A stretch of 64,000 nucleotides of DNA, taken from Cenococcum geophilum 1.58 (lineage: Eukaryota; Ascomycota; Dothideomycetes; Gloniales; Gloniaceae). How positions within the stretch are numbered: position 1 is the stretch's first letter; the number at the start of each line of letters is the position of its first letter. The DNA is taken from the NCBI GenBank assembly GCA_001692895.1, contig KV748202.1, forward strand, positions 620,001-684,000, in the 5' to 3' direction. Below the pieces are notes generated by a model. The model worked only from the letters and a program-made list of their open reading frames with translations. It did not search any database and was not told the origin of the DNA. This document shows positions 13,808 through 37,345 of this stretch, piece by piece. A program made the position numbers and the translations under genes.

Positions 13808-15973
13808 ATGACAACTACAGAAGATGTTCTTAAGGGTAAATACCCTGCGAAAGCCCATGCTAAAAAGGTTGCGGGGTATATTAAGAGCAAAGGCGGGGAT
13901 ATCACTGGGACGCTTTATCTAGAAGGGCAGAAAACGAGGATGATTGAAGTGAGGTCTTATATGCTTCTCTATCTCGCTTTGTTCTATGCCACATCGCTCT
14001 CTGCAAGAGAACTTCTTCTACACGTCTAGAAATATATTATTTCACATGGAAACTGGGAAGAGGAGCGGCAGCATTGTCATAAGCTTGTGGAGTTCTTGAG
14101 TCATCGCTGTAACTCGCGTTCTTGAGCAAGCGTTTCTTTCTCTCATATCTTTCAGTATAATTAATACCCTATTCAGAATTAATAAGAGCTTGCTAATCTG
14201 GAGGACTTAGGATAATGACGAGCCGATGCCATTTAGGTGAGCCTCCTGTCATCTGCCTTTCCAGTAGTATTCTACTTCCCTCTAATCTTCTATCACCAAT
14301 CATTTGCTCTTTCAAGACCTGCACTCCTATATTCTGCGTCTTAAGGTATTCCATTGATATTGACTTCATCTTAGACAGCGTCGCTACTTCTATTACTTAA
14401 CCGGATGTGCACTACCTGATTGCTACTTTACTTACGATATGAAGACTGAGAAATCTACCTTATTCATTCCCCCCATTGATCCGGACGAGGTTATGTGGTC
14501 GGGACTGCCAATGACTCCAGAGGAAGCTCTAAAAGCGTGAGTGTTATTCAACTAAGTTTTCGTCGTTTTAACGGTCTCTTGCATGCCTTTGATATGCATT
14601 TTATCTCTTTTTAACTAAAGCATAAGCTTTTCACCTCATGTCGAAATTTTAGAGCACTTTTGGGTAAACACAGAATCTCCTCTCCAATATATATTCCCCT
14701 TGCAGTTCTATCACCCCTTTTCCAGTCCGTCCCAAAATAACCAGGGATACCTAAACCCAACCACAGCTACGACATCGACGCCGTCCTCCCTACCACCGAA
14801 GTGAACGCCGAGCTAACCTCCTCTTCCACGCCCAAAACCACCATTTACGCCATCCCAAACCAAGTCTCCGACCACATAACCTTCCTCTCCTACAGCGCCA
14901 AAGACTTCGAGCTCCTCAAGTCCGCCATCGAAATCTGCCGCGTCGTCAAAACCCCCTACGAAATCGCGCTAATCCGCCACGCCAACGCCATCTCGACCGC
15001 CGCCCACACCGCCGTCATGCGGGCCGTGTCGACCGCCGCCAACGAGCGCGATCTCGAGGCGCTGTTCCTGAAATCCTGCATCGAGCGCGGCGCCCGCGAC
15101 CAGGCCTACCACTCCGTCGTCGCTGCCGGCACCGCCGCCGCGACCCTACACTACGTCCGCAACGACCAGCCGCTCGCGGGCAAGCTGAACCTGCTGCTTG
15201 ACGCCGGCGCCGAGGTCGCATGCTACGCGTCGGACATCACGCGCACGTTCCCCCTCTCGGGCGCCTTCAGCGTCGAGAGCGCCGCCGTCTACGATGTCGT
15301 GCTGCGGATGCAGAAGGAGTGCATCGCGATGCTGCGGGCTGGCGTGCGCTGGGACGACGTGCATGCGCACGCGCACCGCGTGGCCATCGCGGGCCTGCTG
15401 CGGCTGGGGATCCTGAAGGGCGTGGCGGAGGACATCTTTGCTGCGGGGACCAGCGTTGCGTTTTTCCCGCACGGCTTGGGACACTATCTCGGGATGGACA
15501 CGCATGATTCGGGCGGGAATCCGGATTATGCGGATCCGGATCCGATGTTTCGTTATTTGAGGGTGAGAGGGACGTTGCCGGCTGGGAGCGTCATTACGGT
15601 GGAGCCGGGGATATATTTTTGCAGGTTTATTATCGAGCCGTATTTGAGGGATCCGAAGCATAAAGGGTTTATTGACGAGGGGGTTTTGGAGAAGTATTGG
15701 GATGTTGGGGGGGTTAGGATTGAGGGTGAGTTTGGACTTCCTTTCCGATAGCGGATTCTATGTGCTCGGTGGCATTGCTGGTCTCACATTTTGAGAGTCA
15801 AGGGGTGGTGGTGGGTAGGGAGAGGAGGGAGTACCAATAGCGTACTGGGCACGGGCTAACTCATCTTTGCTTTGACAGATAACATCCTGATCACCGACTC
15901 CGGCTACGACAACCTTACGCCGACTCCTAAGGAAGTGCACGAGATGGAGAAAATCATTCGTGGCGAGGCATGA
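13808..15973 (+). CDS. pepP: Xaa-Pro aminopeptidase PEPP (prolidase, M24B)
   Basis: Five exons (13808-13948, 14211-14236, 14375-14536, 14767-15725, 15879-15973) join in phase to 460 residues, the usual PEPP size. Exon 2 is only 26 nt (DNDEPMPF) but is needed to link ...KTRMIE to [12 protein letters not shown]. Donors are GTGAGG, GTGAGC, GTGAGT and GTGAGT. Residues 1-165 form the aminopeptidase-P N-terminal domain. The rest is the pita-bread metallopeptidase fold. All five metal ligands are visible: D255 (LLLDAGAE), D266 (SDITRTF), H349 (HGLGHYLG), E389 (TVEPGIYF) and E429 (GVRIE). The enzyme removes N-terminal residues before proline, probably in the cytosol, since no signal peptide is seen. 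Exon 4 is strongly GC-rich. A MITE ends 33 bp upstream of the ATG. Confidence 0.93.
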
Positions 15974-32000: not shown

Positions 32001-34263
32001 CAGCTAATAATTAGGAAAAGTAGAGGCCTATAAAACTAGAGGGAGCTAGTAGTAGAGCCTTAGACCCTTAAAGGAATTTAAGGATAATACCTAAATTTAT
32101 AAGTTAAATAGTAAGATTAGTAGTTTAAAGCGTTAATAGATAGTAGAGTAATACGGAACTATATCTTACTAGTAGTAGTTAAGAGAATGGGATTACCTTA
32201 TAGATAGAAGGAGCAACCTTACCTATTAGTTACAATTTTAGGGGATCTAATAGCCTATGGAGGAGGGATTATTAACCTTAAAATAGGACCTATTTAGCTA
32301 ACTATTAAAGGAAGACAAATTAAGGTGTTATTTAATATCCTACTATTAGGACGGGATAAGGTAGTATTAGGGATGCCTTAGTTACAGAAATACAATCTAA
32401 AGATCGATTAGATTATAGGTTAGGTTAATATTAGAGATATTTAACGCCATAAGATGTAATAATAAGCTAAGTTGGTATAGTACTAAGTCGGAGTAATATA
32501 TAAAGAAACTAAGCGAGGCTTAAGTTATGTACTAAAAAGATACTATAAGTATAGTAAGAAACTATAGTTACTAAAAAGTGAAAAGCTGTTAAAATATATA
32601 GTATAGGACTATAAAATAGAATTGGAACCAGGAATAAGTCTAAAGTTCTTTCTAATCTATAAGCTTACTAAAGAAGAAGGTAGAGCACTAAAAGAGTTTA
32701 TTTAGGAAAATCTATAAAAGGGATATATTAGACTATTATAGTTATTAGCGGGTTATCTAGTACTGTTCGTACTAAAGAAGAATAGCAAACTAAGGCTGTA
32801 TATCGACTATAGATAGTTAAATAGTATTACTAGAAAGGATAGGTATCCTTTACCCTTAATTAGCGAAATCTAAGATAGGATAGGTAACGCGTAAATCTTT
32901 ACAAAGATAGATCTAAGATAGGCGTATTACTAGATTAGGATTAAGGAAGGCGATAAATAAAAAGTAGCTTTTAGGTTAAAGGAAGGACTATATAAACTAT
33001 TAGTTATGCAATTTAGGCTTATAAACGCACTAGCAACGTTCTAAAAGCGTATTAACAATATATTAGGAGAATACTTGGATAAATTTGTTATGGTATACCT
33101 TAACGATATTATTATCTACTTAATAACTAAGGAAGAATACGGGGAATACGTTAAATAGGTTTTAAGGAGACTATAGGAAGAATAGATACTAGTAGTAATT
33201 AAGAAATACGAGTTCTTTACCAGGAAGACTAATTTTATTAGATTTATTATTAAACTAGGCCAACTTAGTATAGATCTAAAGAAGATTAAGGCTATAGTGA
33301 ATTAGTAAGAACTAGAGAACATTATATAGTTGAGATTATTCCTAGGGTTTTATAATTACTGTAGAAGGTTTATAGCATAATAGTTAAAGGATATTAAACT
33401 ATTTACGCGGTTAATAAAGAAAGAAGAACTATAGGTATAGGGAAAGGAATAGTAAGAACTCTTTAAGAAAGTTAAAGAGTTATTTACCTAGGAGCTAGTT
33501 CTTAAGATCTATTAACTAGGGCTAGAGACGGTTATAGAAACAGATGCATTAGACTATATACTAGGGGTATACTTTATACAGAAATATTAAGATAGATAGC
33601 ACCTAGTAGTATATTATAGTTAAAAGATAATACTACTAGAGTTAAACTATAACATCTATAATAAAGAGTTATTAGGTATAGTTATAGTATTAAAGAAATA
33701 GAGAGTATTCTTATAAGGTATAGAGAAACTATTTATAGTTAAGACGGATTATAAGAACCTAATAGGATTCCTAACAATAAAGGAACTTAACTAAAGATAG
33801 GTTAGATAGGCAGACATCAGCAAAATGTTTATGCCTCCTGACAGTACTGACAGCTCCTGACAGCTCCTGTCAGGGCTGTCAGGAGCTCCAGGAGACACTC
33901 ACACTCGGCATCCTGTCAGGAACCTGTCAGGAGGTCGCCCGGACCACCAGGACCACCAGGACCTCCAGGACCTCCAGGACCTCCAGGACCATCAGGACCA
34001 TCAGGACAATAATAAAAATTCTAGATTTAAAAATAAGGTATATTAACACTCCAGTATTTGCAGCTAGTCAAAAAATATAAAATTAATTTAATTATATATA
34101 ATCTAAATAATCCAAATCAATCTCTCCTGTCTACCGCCTGTGTCTGTCATGGAGCTCTACGATCGCTCGGGCGTCGGGCGATCGACTGAGGAGCCTCTCG
34201 CGGAGGCTCCAAATCGTCGATCGGCGGTGTTCCCGATGATCCGCCGGCCGTGTGCTGATTTCC

Positions 34264-34960
34264 TAACTAGGCCTAGTGCCTGCCTGCCTGCCTGCCTGTC
34301 TGCCTGTCCTACCTGTCCTACCTGTCTGTGCCTGCCTGTGCCTGTCGTGCCTACCTGTCTATGCCTACCTGTCTGTATCTGTAATTCGGGGGAGAGGTCG
34401 GCCCGATCGAAGGCTCTGCTTGATTCGATTGCGATTGATTGTATTGATTCGAATCGTTCTCCATGGGCGTTCGTTGGCTGTACGTTTGAACGGTGGTCGT
34501 CTAGGGTGCCTCCCTAGGAGGCCTTGATTCGATTTGATTCGGTAATAGGCTGATATCGAGGCTCTGGTTCGATTCGATCGATCGATCGAATCGATCGTGT
34601 TCGCTGGCTGGTCGTTCGAACGATTATCGTCTGGTTCTGACGACGGTCCTCTCTTACTTGCCTGCCTACCTGCCTGCCTACCTACTTACTTACCTACCTA
34701 CCTACCTACCTACCTACCTACCTGCCTGCCTGTGTCAGTATCTAATTTAATTCGGGGGAGAGGTCGGCCCGATCGAAGGCTCTAATTGATCCAGGTCGTT
34801 CTCTATGGCCGTTCGCTAGCTGTACATTCGAACGGTAGTCGTCTAGGGTGCCTCCCTAGGAGGCCTTGATACGATTCGGTAATGGGCCAATATCAAATTC
34901 GATTAATCGATCAATTNAATCGTTCGTGGTCTTCGCTAGCTGGTTGTTCGAAAGGTTGTC
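34264..34960. repeat. Two diverged copies of a ~340-bp composite unit
   Basis: Each copy has a CCTG/CCTA tetranucleotide tract (34270-34340; 34660-34732), then GGGGGAGAGGTCGGCCCGAT (34389 and 34755). CGTTCG plus GTCGTCTAGGGTGCCTCCCT (about 34494; about 34837) follows, and then a GATTCGGTAAT tail. The copies have the same order, so the element grew by internal duplication. Confidence 0.82.
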
Positions 34961-35080
34961 GTCTAGTTCTTGTAACGGTCGTCTGGTTCTGGCGACGGTC
35001 GTCTGGTTCTGGCGACGGTCGTCTGGTTCTGGCGACGGTCGTCTGGTTCTGGCGATGGTCGTCTGGTTTTGGCGACGGTC
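34961..35080. repeat. 20-bp tandem array, 6 units
   Basis: Units of GTCTGGTTCTGGCGACGGTC repeat exactly at 34981-35040, then with one change each at 35041-35060 and 35061-35080. A diverged first unit lies at 34961-34980. There are no spacers, so this is not CRISPR-like. Confidence 0.95.
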
Positions 35081-37345
35081 CTCTGCTGGCTGCCGTTCTA
35101 GTGCCTCCCTAAGGGAGGATGTAAGGAGGTAAAAGAATGGGGTGACTGCAAAGGGGGTAACTTGGCAGAGGCACGTGTAGGCTATCGGGGAATATAGCGG
35201 GGGACCCGATAGCACTGTGTGTCGCGCGCACGCGCACATAGGGTCGTGTCGCATTAGGGGGGAGGTATCCCATTGCGGGGGAGGTATCACAGTGGGGAGG
35301 GTGTCGCATTGGGGGGGTGTCTTGAGGGGTGTGCATAGGAGGTGTCGCTTGGGGGGGGTTGGGAGGGGTGTCGCTTAGGGGTATCCTGTCAGGAACCTGA
35401 CAGGACGATCAGGAAAATTAAGATCCTGCCAGGAGCCTGTCAGGAACGATCAGGAAATACTAGTTTCCTGTCAGGACCCTGTCAGGACGACCAGGACGAT
35501 CAGGAAAATCAAAATCCTGCCTGCCAGGAGCCTACCAGGACGATCAGGACCTCCAGGAAAGTCAAAATCCTGTCAGGAGGCCTCCAGGATCTTGGCACCC
35601 CAACAAAATGCTGATGGAGATGCTTACAGAATACTATTTTAAGATTTAGTATACTAAGGGTATAGATAACACGCAAGTAGATGCTTTAAGTTAGAAAGCT
35701 AAGCTATGAAATAATAAAAAGCTATTAGGGGCTTTACTGCGAAAAGATATAGACGGATTGATTAGGTATAATTATCTAAAAATTATAGCAACTTAAGAGA
35801 GTAACAAATTAGAGAAAGTCTATAAGATACTAGAAAGCTTTTAGGTATAAAGAATTCTAGAAGTATAACTAGAAGATTTATAGACGGATATATATAAGAA
35901 TTAAGAAGTAAAGTATATCCCAAGAAGTATAGCAGAGTAATTTATAGAAAAATTCTATAGGGGATTAACCTAAAGATATAATGGAGCTATAGGCTTAGTG
36001 TTAAGACTTTAGGAAGAGTATATTATTAATAGAATCTAAAATATTATAAGAAAAGTAATAAAAGAGTGTTTAGATTGCTAAAGAAATAAGCTAATAAGGT
36101 ATAAGCTATATAGAGGGCTATAACCTATTAAAATACTAGAGAGACTATAGGAGGTTATATTATAGGACTTTATTATTAAGTTACTAAAGTTAAGAGACCC
36201 TATTACCGGATAAGATTATAACGTAATCTTAGTAATAGTAGATAAGCTTATAAAGTGGGGATACTTTATAGCATATATAAAAGAAATATTAGCGGAAGAT
36301 ATCGCTAGAATCTATATTAAAGAAGTATTTATAAGATATAGAGCACTAAGTAAGATTATATTAGATAAAGATCTAAGATTTATAGCAGTATTCTAGGAAG
36401 TGTTCTTAGTAAAGCAAGGAGTTTAAGCAGTAACTTCCACCGCATATTATTTATAGACAGATAGTTAAACAGAAAGATTAAATTAGACACTAGAGTAGTA
36501 TCTAAGGCATTATATCAATTATATATAGAATAATTAGGTATTGCTATTACTAGTTATATAGTTTATATATAATATAACACCCTAAAAGGGAATAGGCATA
36601 TTACCATTTAAGGTAAATTACGGATATAAGCTAAGAACATTATTATTACTACGGCAAGCGAAGAAAATAAGTAGCATAGCTAAAGAAAGAATAAAGACGT
36701 TAATAAATCTTTATATAAACCTTATAGAATTAGTAAAGAAAGTATAAGAGAGAATAAAAAGGTATTATAATGCTAAGAGATCTAAGGGACTAGATCTTAA
36801 GGAGGGAGATAAAGTATGGCTACTATATAAAAATTTTAAGAGTTAACGACTAAGTAAGAAGTTAAACCACGTTAGACTAGGACCTTTTAAAATTATATAA
36901 AGGATTTCACCAGTTATGTTTAAGTTAAACCTACTAGCTAAAATAAAGATCTACCCTATACAGCATATTATAATGCTAGAACTAGCATATAGAAATATTA
37001 AGCTATTAGCCTACGAAGTAGATATATATGGAGGATAGGAAGAAGATAAATAGTAAGTTTCGAAGATTGTTAATTATAAGGATATTAATAATAAAATATA
37101 GTATAAGGTTAAGTAGATAGGCTATACTAAAACTACTTAGGAGCTACTAGAAAATTTAAAGAATGCTATAAGAAAGGTATAGGAGTATTAGAAGAAATTA
37201 GGTTAGGCAGTATTAATAAAGAAGGATTGCTAAAAAATGAGTTACCTAAGGGGGACCTAAGAAGAGCAGTTGCCGAGCTACTTAGATCTATTTCCTTCTC
37301 TATTAGAAGAGAATCCGTTCTTTTATTACTAAGTTCCTATAAACC

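Follow-up and report, generated by a model that had tools for sequence, protein, structure and literature searches.

A 1.8-kb Plavaka-type insert in a ruined retrotransposon of Cenococcum geophilum has ends in common with a 28-29-kb transposase-bearing element

The closest described systems to the element reported here are the Plavaka transposons, a CACTA/EnSpm-related cut-and-paste group. In the available part of Kojima 2025 (PMC12730594), Plavaka families are reconstructed from Agaricomycotina, with CATCA...TGATG termini and 2- or 3-bp target-site duplications for PlavakaB, TGT...ACA termini and a 2-bp duplication for PlavakaA, and CAC...GTG termini and a 3-bp duplication for EnSpm. The DNA analyzed here, called the window, is a 64,000-nucleotide stretch of the Cenococcum geophilum 1.58 genome (GCA_001692895.1, contig KV748202.1, positions 620,001 to 684,000), in which an insert of 1802 bp at 33815-35616 interrupts a retrotransposon ruined by repeat-induced point mutation (RIP). 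An earlier note on this DNA, made from the sequence alone, had called the class of the insert unknown and put forward a CACTA/Plavaka-like identity only tentatively; the ends, the duplications and a partner transposase now give the Plavaka type, and the tentative idea is borne out by a Plavaka transposase in a large element with the same ends. The short family and the large element have common ends, a transposase gene lies between those of the large element, the insertions carry duplications, the copies are many, and CpA damage is graded among them. We regard the insert as very probably a non-autonomous member of the Plavaka-type group whose ends are those of the 28-29-kb transposase-bearing element.

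Classification and described relatives

The insert ends in CATCA...TGATG and not in the TGT...ACA of PlavakaA, although the CATCA...TGATG termini are changed in some copies and in the left end of the large copy on C30. A 2-bp duplication was present in 22 of the 23 insertions with both ends read (short copies, the window copy and three large copies), and a Plavaka transposase domain (PF18759) lies between the same ends in the large element and is absent from the 1.8-kb element. Neither the CAC...GTG ends nor the 3-bp duplication of EnSpm/CACTA in the narrow sense is found in the insert family. Tc1/mariner elements duplicate TA only, while 8 of 20 duplications here are not TA. The family also has the features of a non-autonomous element resembling a miniature inverted-repeat transposable element (MITE), being without a transposase, having ends in common with a transposase-bearing element and occurring in many copies. 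Judged by its sequence features, the insert is a non-autonomous Plavaka-type element, PlavakaB by termini and duplication and not by a transposase tree. It is a new family of a known superfamily; public databases already hold Plavaka-domain proteins from ascomycetes, so that their occurrence in this group is not new in itself.

Non-autonomous CACTA/EnSpm elements such as dSpm are alike in their short inverted ends, dense subterminal repeats and the logic of mobilization in trans, but the insert family differs from them by its CATCAGCA ends and 2-bp duplication. Ascomycete MITEs are likewise short, non-coding and present in many copies with inverted ends; for a MITE the insert family is long (1.6-2.1 kb), with subterminal repeats, a minisatellite body and a variable 2-bp duplication. 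PlavakaB, as far as the available part of PMC12730594 describes it, is matched in the CATCA...TGATG ends, the 2-bp duplications and a Plavaka transposase in a larger relative, whereas here the host is an ascomycete, the partner is 28-29 kb long and the 1.8-kb non-autonomous family is numerous. The enlarged EnSpm of Chondrus crispus (16-20 kb), in the available part of PMC6431247, is also CACTA-related and enlarged by extra sequence, but it is smaller than the 28-29-kb element, comes from a red alga and belongs to another branch. In the part of the literature naming Plavaka that was consulted we met no comparable case, although one may still have been published, and among the papers searched we found none naming both Plavaka and Cenococcum. 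The insert, previously unclassified, can now be assigned to a defined family of a named superfamily, for which a partner element is known and the spread of damage can be measured, and a multi-copy Plavaka element of 28-29 kb is described in an ascomycete. Elements of 1.8 kb and 29 kb with identical types of end, along with copies at many stages of RIP, provide a natural series on the persistence of DNA transposons in a repeat-mutating genome.

A transposase-bearing element with the same ends

Of 266 candidates for PF18759 in the genome 123 were scored, and 123 matches (matches, not genes) exceeded the cut-off, compared to matches in 0 of 14 control genomes. The best match, at C30:1712561-1713541, scored 230 bits and the next 158. 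Downstream of this transposase, at C30:1719153, is a right end that is 81.5% identical to that of the insert over 200 bp and agrees with it fully in the final 31 bp. A related element on C8, oriented likewise, ends on the right at C8:540114. On C34 and C5, CATCAGCAAAATGTT sites lie 21.5 kb upstream of the transposase matches; the left end of the C30 element was predicted beforehand from this spacing and was found at C30:1689887, about 500 bp off. The end coordinates give lengths of 29,267 bp (C30), 28,642 bp (C5) and 28,033 bp (C34), and the large element is a multi-copy unit of 28-29 kb. The first 193 bp of the insert are 93.8% identical to the C34 copy, with weaker repeat-rich matches to about bp 286, and left-end identity is 86% to C5 and 82% to C30, so that the likeness to the large element spans about 190-290 bp at the left end and 100-200 bp at the right end, well beyond the terminal repeat. 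The C30 element (C30:1689887-1719153) is inserted in the same retrotransposon family as the window insert, 641 bp further along.

The large element also contains a 3-kb cargo block, taken from near its left end. This block was found upstream of the transposase gene, in the same orientation and 16-33 kb off, in all 13 full-length C30-type transposase genes (C30 included; 40 of 67 candidates scored), although C8 and one of the C6 copies have it only in part. C5 and C89, in which the transposase gene is in two pieces, have the block upstream as well. There are also blocks, those on C19 and C35 among them, that lack a transposase gene match. On C89 the spacing between gene and block exceeds the commonest 19.4-19.6 kb by about 1.9 kb, which fits the presence of a short copy, L019 (1832 bp, TA duplication), inside that large Plavaka copy (C89:46577-71334), its presumed partner. 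The cargo of the C30 element, about 20 kb of extra sequence, gave no Pfam match in any of the nine open reading frame (ORF) pieces scanned. A 250-aa piece of the C30 transposase had 24 protein relatives, the top two at 100% and 98%, and the named ones come from ascomycetes (Emmonsia crescens, Phaeosphaeriaceae sp.) and basidiomycetes. TAG/TAA stops are present in nearly all of the 123 PF18759 matches, which seem to be the remains of several dead subfamilies.

Subterminal repeats in CACTA elements serve as transposase-binding sites. In the insert, CAGGA/TCCTG units are dense at the edges (15 in the outer 230 bp on the left, 21 in the outer 242 bp on the right), with a single one in the middle 1330 bp, and the palindromic TCCTGNCAGGA occurs once in the left end, four times in the right end and not in the middle; the last 420 bp of the C30 element hold 14 CAGGA/TCCTG units. 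By analogy, these units are probable binding sites for the transposase. In the mechanism that we propose, transposase from the large element would bind the repeated units near both ends, cut at CATCA...TGATG and insert the element at a 2-bp stagger, often TA, leaving a 2-bp duplication, and the short element would thereby spread in trans. The window copy would have landed in a retrotransposon already ruined by RIP and would have gained almost no RIP since. Binding, trans-mobilization, the order of insertion and RIP, and any present activity are what we infer from sequence.

Borders, copies and target sites of the short family

The borders given in the earlier note are exact, flanks and empty sites being in agreement. 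The insert starts with CATCAGCAAAATGTT and ends with AACAAAATGCTGATG (outermost ends CATCAGCA...TGCTGATG), its termini match as an inverted repeat at 12 of 15 terminal positions, and its flanks read GGCAGA and GAGATGC, with GA on each side as the 2-bp target-site duplication previously reported. Together with one GA the insert adds 1804 bp to the host retrotransposon and thus shifts the host reading frame. The two host pieces were translated, with stops as X, in the frame that removal of the insert would join. The left piece contains a reverse transcriptase and RNase H (PF17917, 5e-17), and the RNase H match stops at residue 602 of 604, at profile position 97 of 105; the right piece contains a Tf2-1-like SH3 domain (7.4e-10) and an integrase H2C2 match below the cut-off (19.7 versus 25.5 bits). 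The domains of both pieces therefore sit in the frame that excision would join, as expected if removal of the insert restores the RNase H frame. Comparison with empty host copies, which had been proposed as a check, gave five other retrotransposon stretches that align straight through the junction as one alignment and without the insert: L023, L028 and L029 at 81-82% identity (L029 partial) and L054 and L055 at about 90%, the junction being inspected base by base in the L054 alignment only. It is confirmed that the insert splits the RNase H domain of a retrotransposon ruined by RIP.

The body of the insert contains minisatellites (a 20-bp GTCGTCTGGTTCTGGCGACG, CCTACCTGCC-type runs and a 19-bp GGTGTCGCATTGGGGGGGT) and has no ORF of note, as previously stated: none of its four ORF pieces was above the Pfam cut-off, with one sub-threshold match to UPF0542 (E 0.019). 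No match to the insert was found in Rfam or in plasmid records. One ambiguous base (N) is present within the insert at window position 34917. The features of the locus are collected in Table 1.

Table 1 Features of the insert and the interrupted retrotransposon in the window; the plus orientation of the insert places the end in common with the left end of the large partner on the left
Feature	Position	Strand	Remarks
Retrotransposon, left part	32001..33812	+	reverse transcriptase and RNase H; RIP-damaged
GA, left copy of target-site duplication	33813..33814	none	from flank sequence and empty site
Complete non-autonomous Plavaka-type element	33815..35616	+	1802 bp
Left terminal inverted repeat	33815..33829	+	CATCAGCAAAATGTT
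Left end in common with 28-29-kb Plavaka element	33815..34100	+	CAGGA/TCCTG-rich
Body without recognized coding content	34101..35374	none	minisatellites present
Right subterminal region	35375..35616	none	palindromic TCCTGNCAGGA units, 4 in last 242 bp
Right end in common with large Plavaka element	35418..35616	+	C30: 81.5% over 200 bp, last 31 bp identical
Right terminal inverted repeat	35602..35616	-	minus-strand reading CATCAGCATTTTGTT
GA, right copy of target-site duplication	35617..35618	none	from flank sequence and empty site
Retrotransposon, continuation	35617..37200	+	Tf2-1-like SH3; sub-cut-off integrase zinc-binding match

A genome search with the ends of the insert, as the earlier note had suggested, returned numerous copies that have these ends and carry 2-bp duplications, and a transposase-bearing relative with the same ends, of the kind that it named as a supporting result, was found as well. 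The first 325 bp matched in all 40 scored places (of 236 candidates) at 85-100% identity, or 85-97% in the 39 besides the window. With the last 256 bp, 46 matches came from the 40 places scored among 207 candidates, and the long ones were mostly at 76-89%, a lower identity indicating that the right end is more variable. A pattern of the 31-bp right terminus occurred at 140 genomic sites with at most 3 mismatches, part of them ends of the large Plavaka element, while the reversed control had none. The idea that the insert might be single-copy fails on these counts.

Target sites were read in the window copy and the 20 best-matching others, a sample picked by likeness to the window copy and biased toward little-damaged copies. 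Short copies were 1.6-2.1 kb long, with one of 3.2 kb. Identical 2-bp flanks were found by script in 18 of the 20 further copies and by eye in L016 (AA); L028 has lost its left terminus. The large copies on C5 and C30 have TA and AG, and the one on C34 has no duplication (TC versus GG). Among 20 duplications (the window, 18 copies and C5), 12 were TA and the rest GA, AT, CT, CT, GT, AA, TC and AG, and 0 of 20 scored extended to 3 bp. Flanks agreed in 30 of 440 comparisons at shifted positions and in 134 of 380 when partners were swapped among copies, the latter being high because TA is common. Some copies have altered ends, on the left in L021, L027 and L029 and on the right in L011, L017, L019, L025, L026 and L028.

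Several other relatives were observed. L012, L024 and L025 have many transversions (44, 61 and 55) and A/T-to-G/C changes besides RIP-type change, which suggests a distinct subfamily of the short element. L033, L035, L036 and L038 resemble the family in the right end and in some of the body, with longer and more repeated subterminal regions. L034 (C3:2765601-2767400) resembles it over no more than some 100 bp at the right end; it contains a run of N, its GC-rich interior is different, and it is perhaps another non-autonomous derivative. L034 and L037, which have only the right end in common, were considered as transposase candidates and rejected, L034 having no clear gene and L037 being the right end of the large C8 copy. 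Facing termini on C6 (434036 and 453460, 19 kb apart) were likewise rejected as one large element; the left one belongs to a complete short copy with its right terminus at 436070, and that at 453460 carries the right end and body of the family.

RIP load, age and alternative explanations

The composite RIP index was -0.16 for the insert and 1.23 for its 1-kb flanks, in agreement with the earlier description of a RIP-free insert in a RIP-damaged host. RIP-type change was scored as C-to-T against the column majority in an alignment of 20 copies, i.e., the window copy and 19 of the 20 others (the right end of L016 was unrecognized by the script). Pooled C-to-T change was 576/4068 at CpA (14.2%), 279/3795 at CpG (7.35%), 108/5490 at CpC (2.0%) and 77/4671 at CpT (1.65%), giving CpA 8.9-fold the odds of CpC and CpT combined; RIP of this CpA type would suit an ascomycete host. 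Per copy, the CpA load ran from 1.0, 2.0 (L018), 2.0 (window), 2.5, 4.4 and 5.9 up to 36.5%, L015 and L023 being low-CpA copies along with L018, and with the family mean probably underestimated as the sample leans to window-like copies. This graded damage indicates that the family is sensitive to RIP, and its identity is presumably above the RIP threshold. The window copy had 4 C-to-T changes at 201 CpA sites, not clearly distinct from its own CpC and CpT sites (p = 0.1) and far below the remaining copies taken together (p = 2e-9), and of 1704 sites compared it departed from the column majority at 14. Its sequence suggests that the window copy is probably young, or has met few sexual cycles, and that its insertion probably post-dates the RIP of the host. 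A preference for RIP-ruined targets was considered and dropped; flank pairs exceed an index of 0.7 in 18 of 20 cases, yet so do 42 of 64 window tiles.

RIP damage is uneven along the C30 element. In the transposase region, 214 CpA sites have C in C30 and T in C8, compared to 11 in reverse, and the right 1.7 kb gave 92 versus 6 against C5; a stretch upstream of the transposase gene was intermediate (156 versus 64), and the left kilobase was about as damaged as in C34 and C5 (20 versus 27 and 26 versus 19). The transposase region is almost without CpA damage, and the left end of the element is damaged, its terminus CATTAGGA having one RIP-type change and one other. The C30 element is perhaps a stranded helper, with a spoiled end and a transposase that may still be made and serve short copies with good ends. 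That this one surviving transposase gene, in a 29-kb element damaged at its left end, keeps the short family moving, so that these parasites would outrun RIP by moving faster than sexual cycles can damage them and the CpA load of each copy would be a relative insertion clock, is a possibility that we hold with considerable doubt.

Several points weigh against the large element as the partner of the short family. The two ends of the insert are only some 82% identical to those of C30, although the left one reaches 94% with C34, and the body of the insert has no match in the C30 element, indicating that it is not a simple internal deletion of the C30 copy. C34, one of three large copies read at both ends, has no duplication, the C30 transposase match holds five stop codons, which may lie in introns, and in the damaged left 400 bp of C30 the CAGGA/TCCTG units number just 4, no more than in shuffled sequence (maximum 5). 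The unrelated body, and more than 100 further Plavaka-domain matches (matches, not genes) in the genome, would also suit mobilization of the 1.8-kb family by another transposase, perhaps of another Plavaka subfamily, the likeness to C30-type ends being shared ancestry only. We consider this improbable given how far that likeness extends past the terminal repeat and the identical 31 bp at the right terminus. The minisatellite arrays in the insert might instead suggest that it is a local satellite or belongs to the retrotransposon, which is hardly conceivable when five other retrotransposon stretches cross the site without it and the copies have differing flanks and differing duplications.

With the insert taken as a non-autonomous Plavaka-type element, its low RIP load can be read in more than one way. 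The earlier note had allowed for insertion after RIP or for evasion of RIP by single-copy status or divergence. Evasion by design, including shielding, would accord with the index of the window copy amid its damaged flanks and with an index of at most 0.45 in all 20 measured copies, their flank pairs exceeding 0.7 in 18 of 20. It is nevertheless very unlikely, as the family is neither single-copy nor highly diverged (85-100% in the 40 scored places) and other copies are damaged from CpA to TpA, over the range and at the odds given above. Insertion after RIP is favored by the near-intact CpA sites of the window copy among damaged relatives. An almost RIP-free window copy would also result if the insert were old and RIP had ceased in the lineage after the ruin of the retrotransposon; one genome cannot part the end of RIP from recent insertion, and this reading keeps a modest chance, youth being favored by the 14 differences in 1704 sites and by the graded damage.

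Elsewhere in the window, a piece of a Xaa-Pro aminopeptidase gene at 14741-15748 is a host gene that points to Dothideomycetes; its relatives carry PF00557, the best named one being from Lepidopterella palustris (77%), followed by Coniosporium and Lasiodiplodia (75%).

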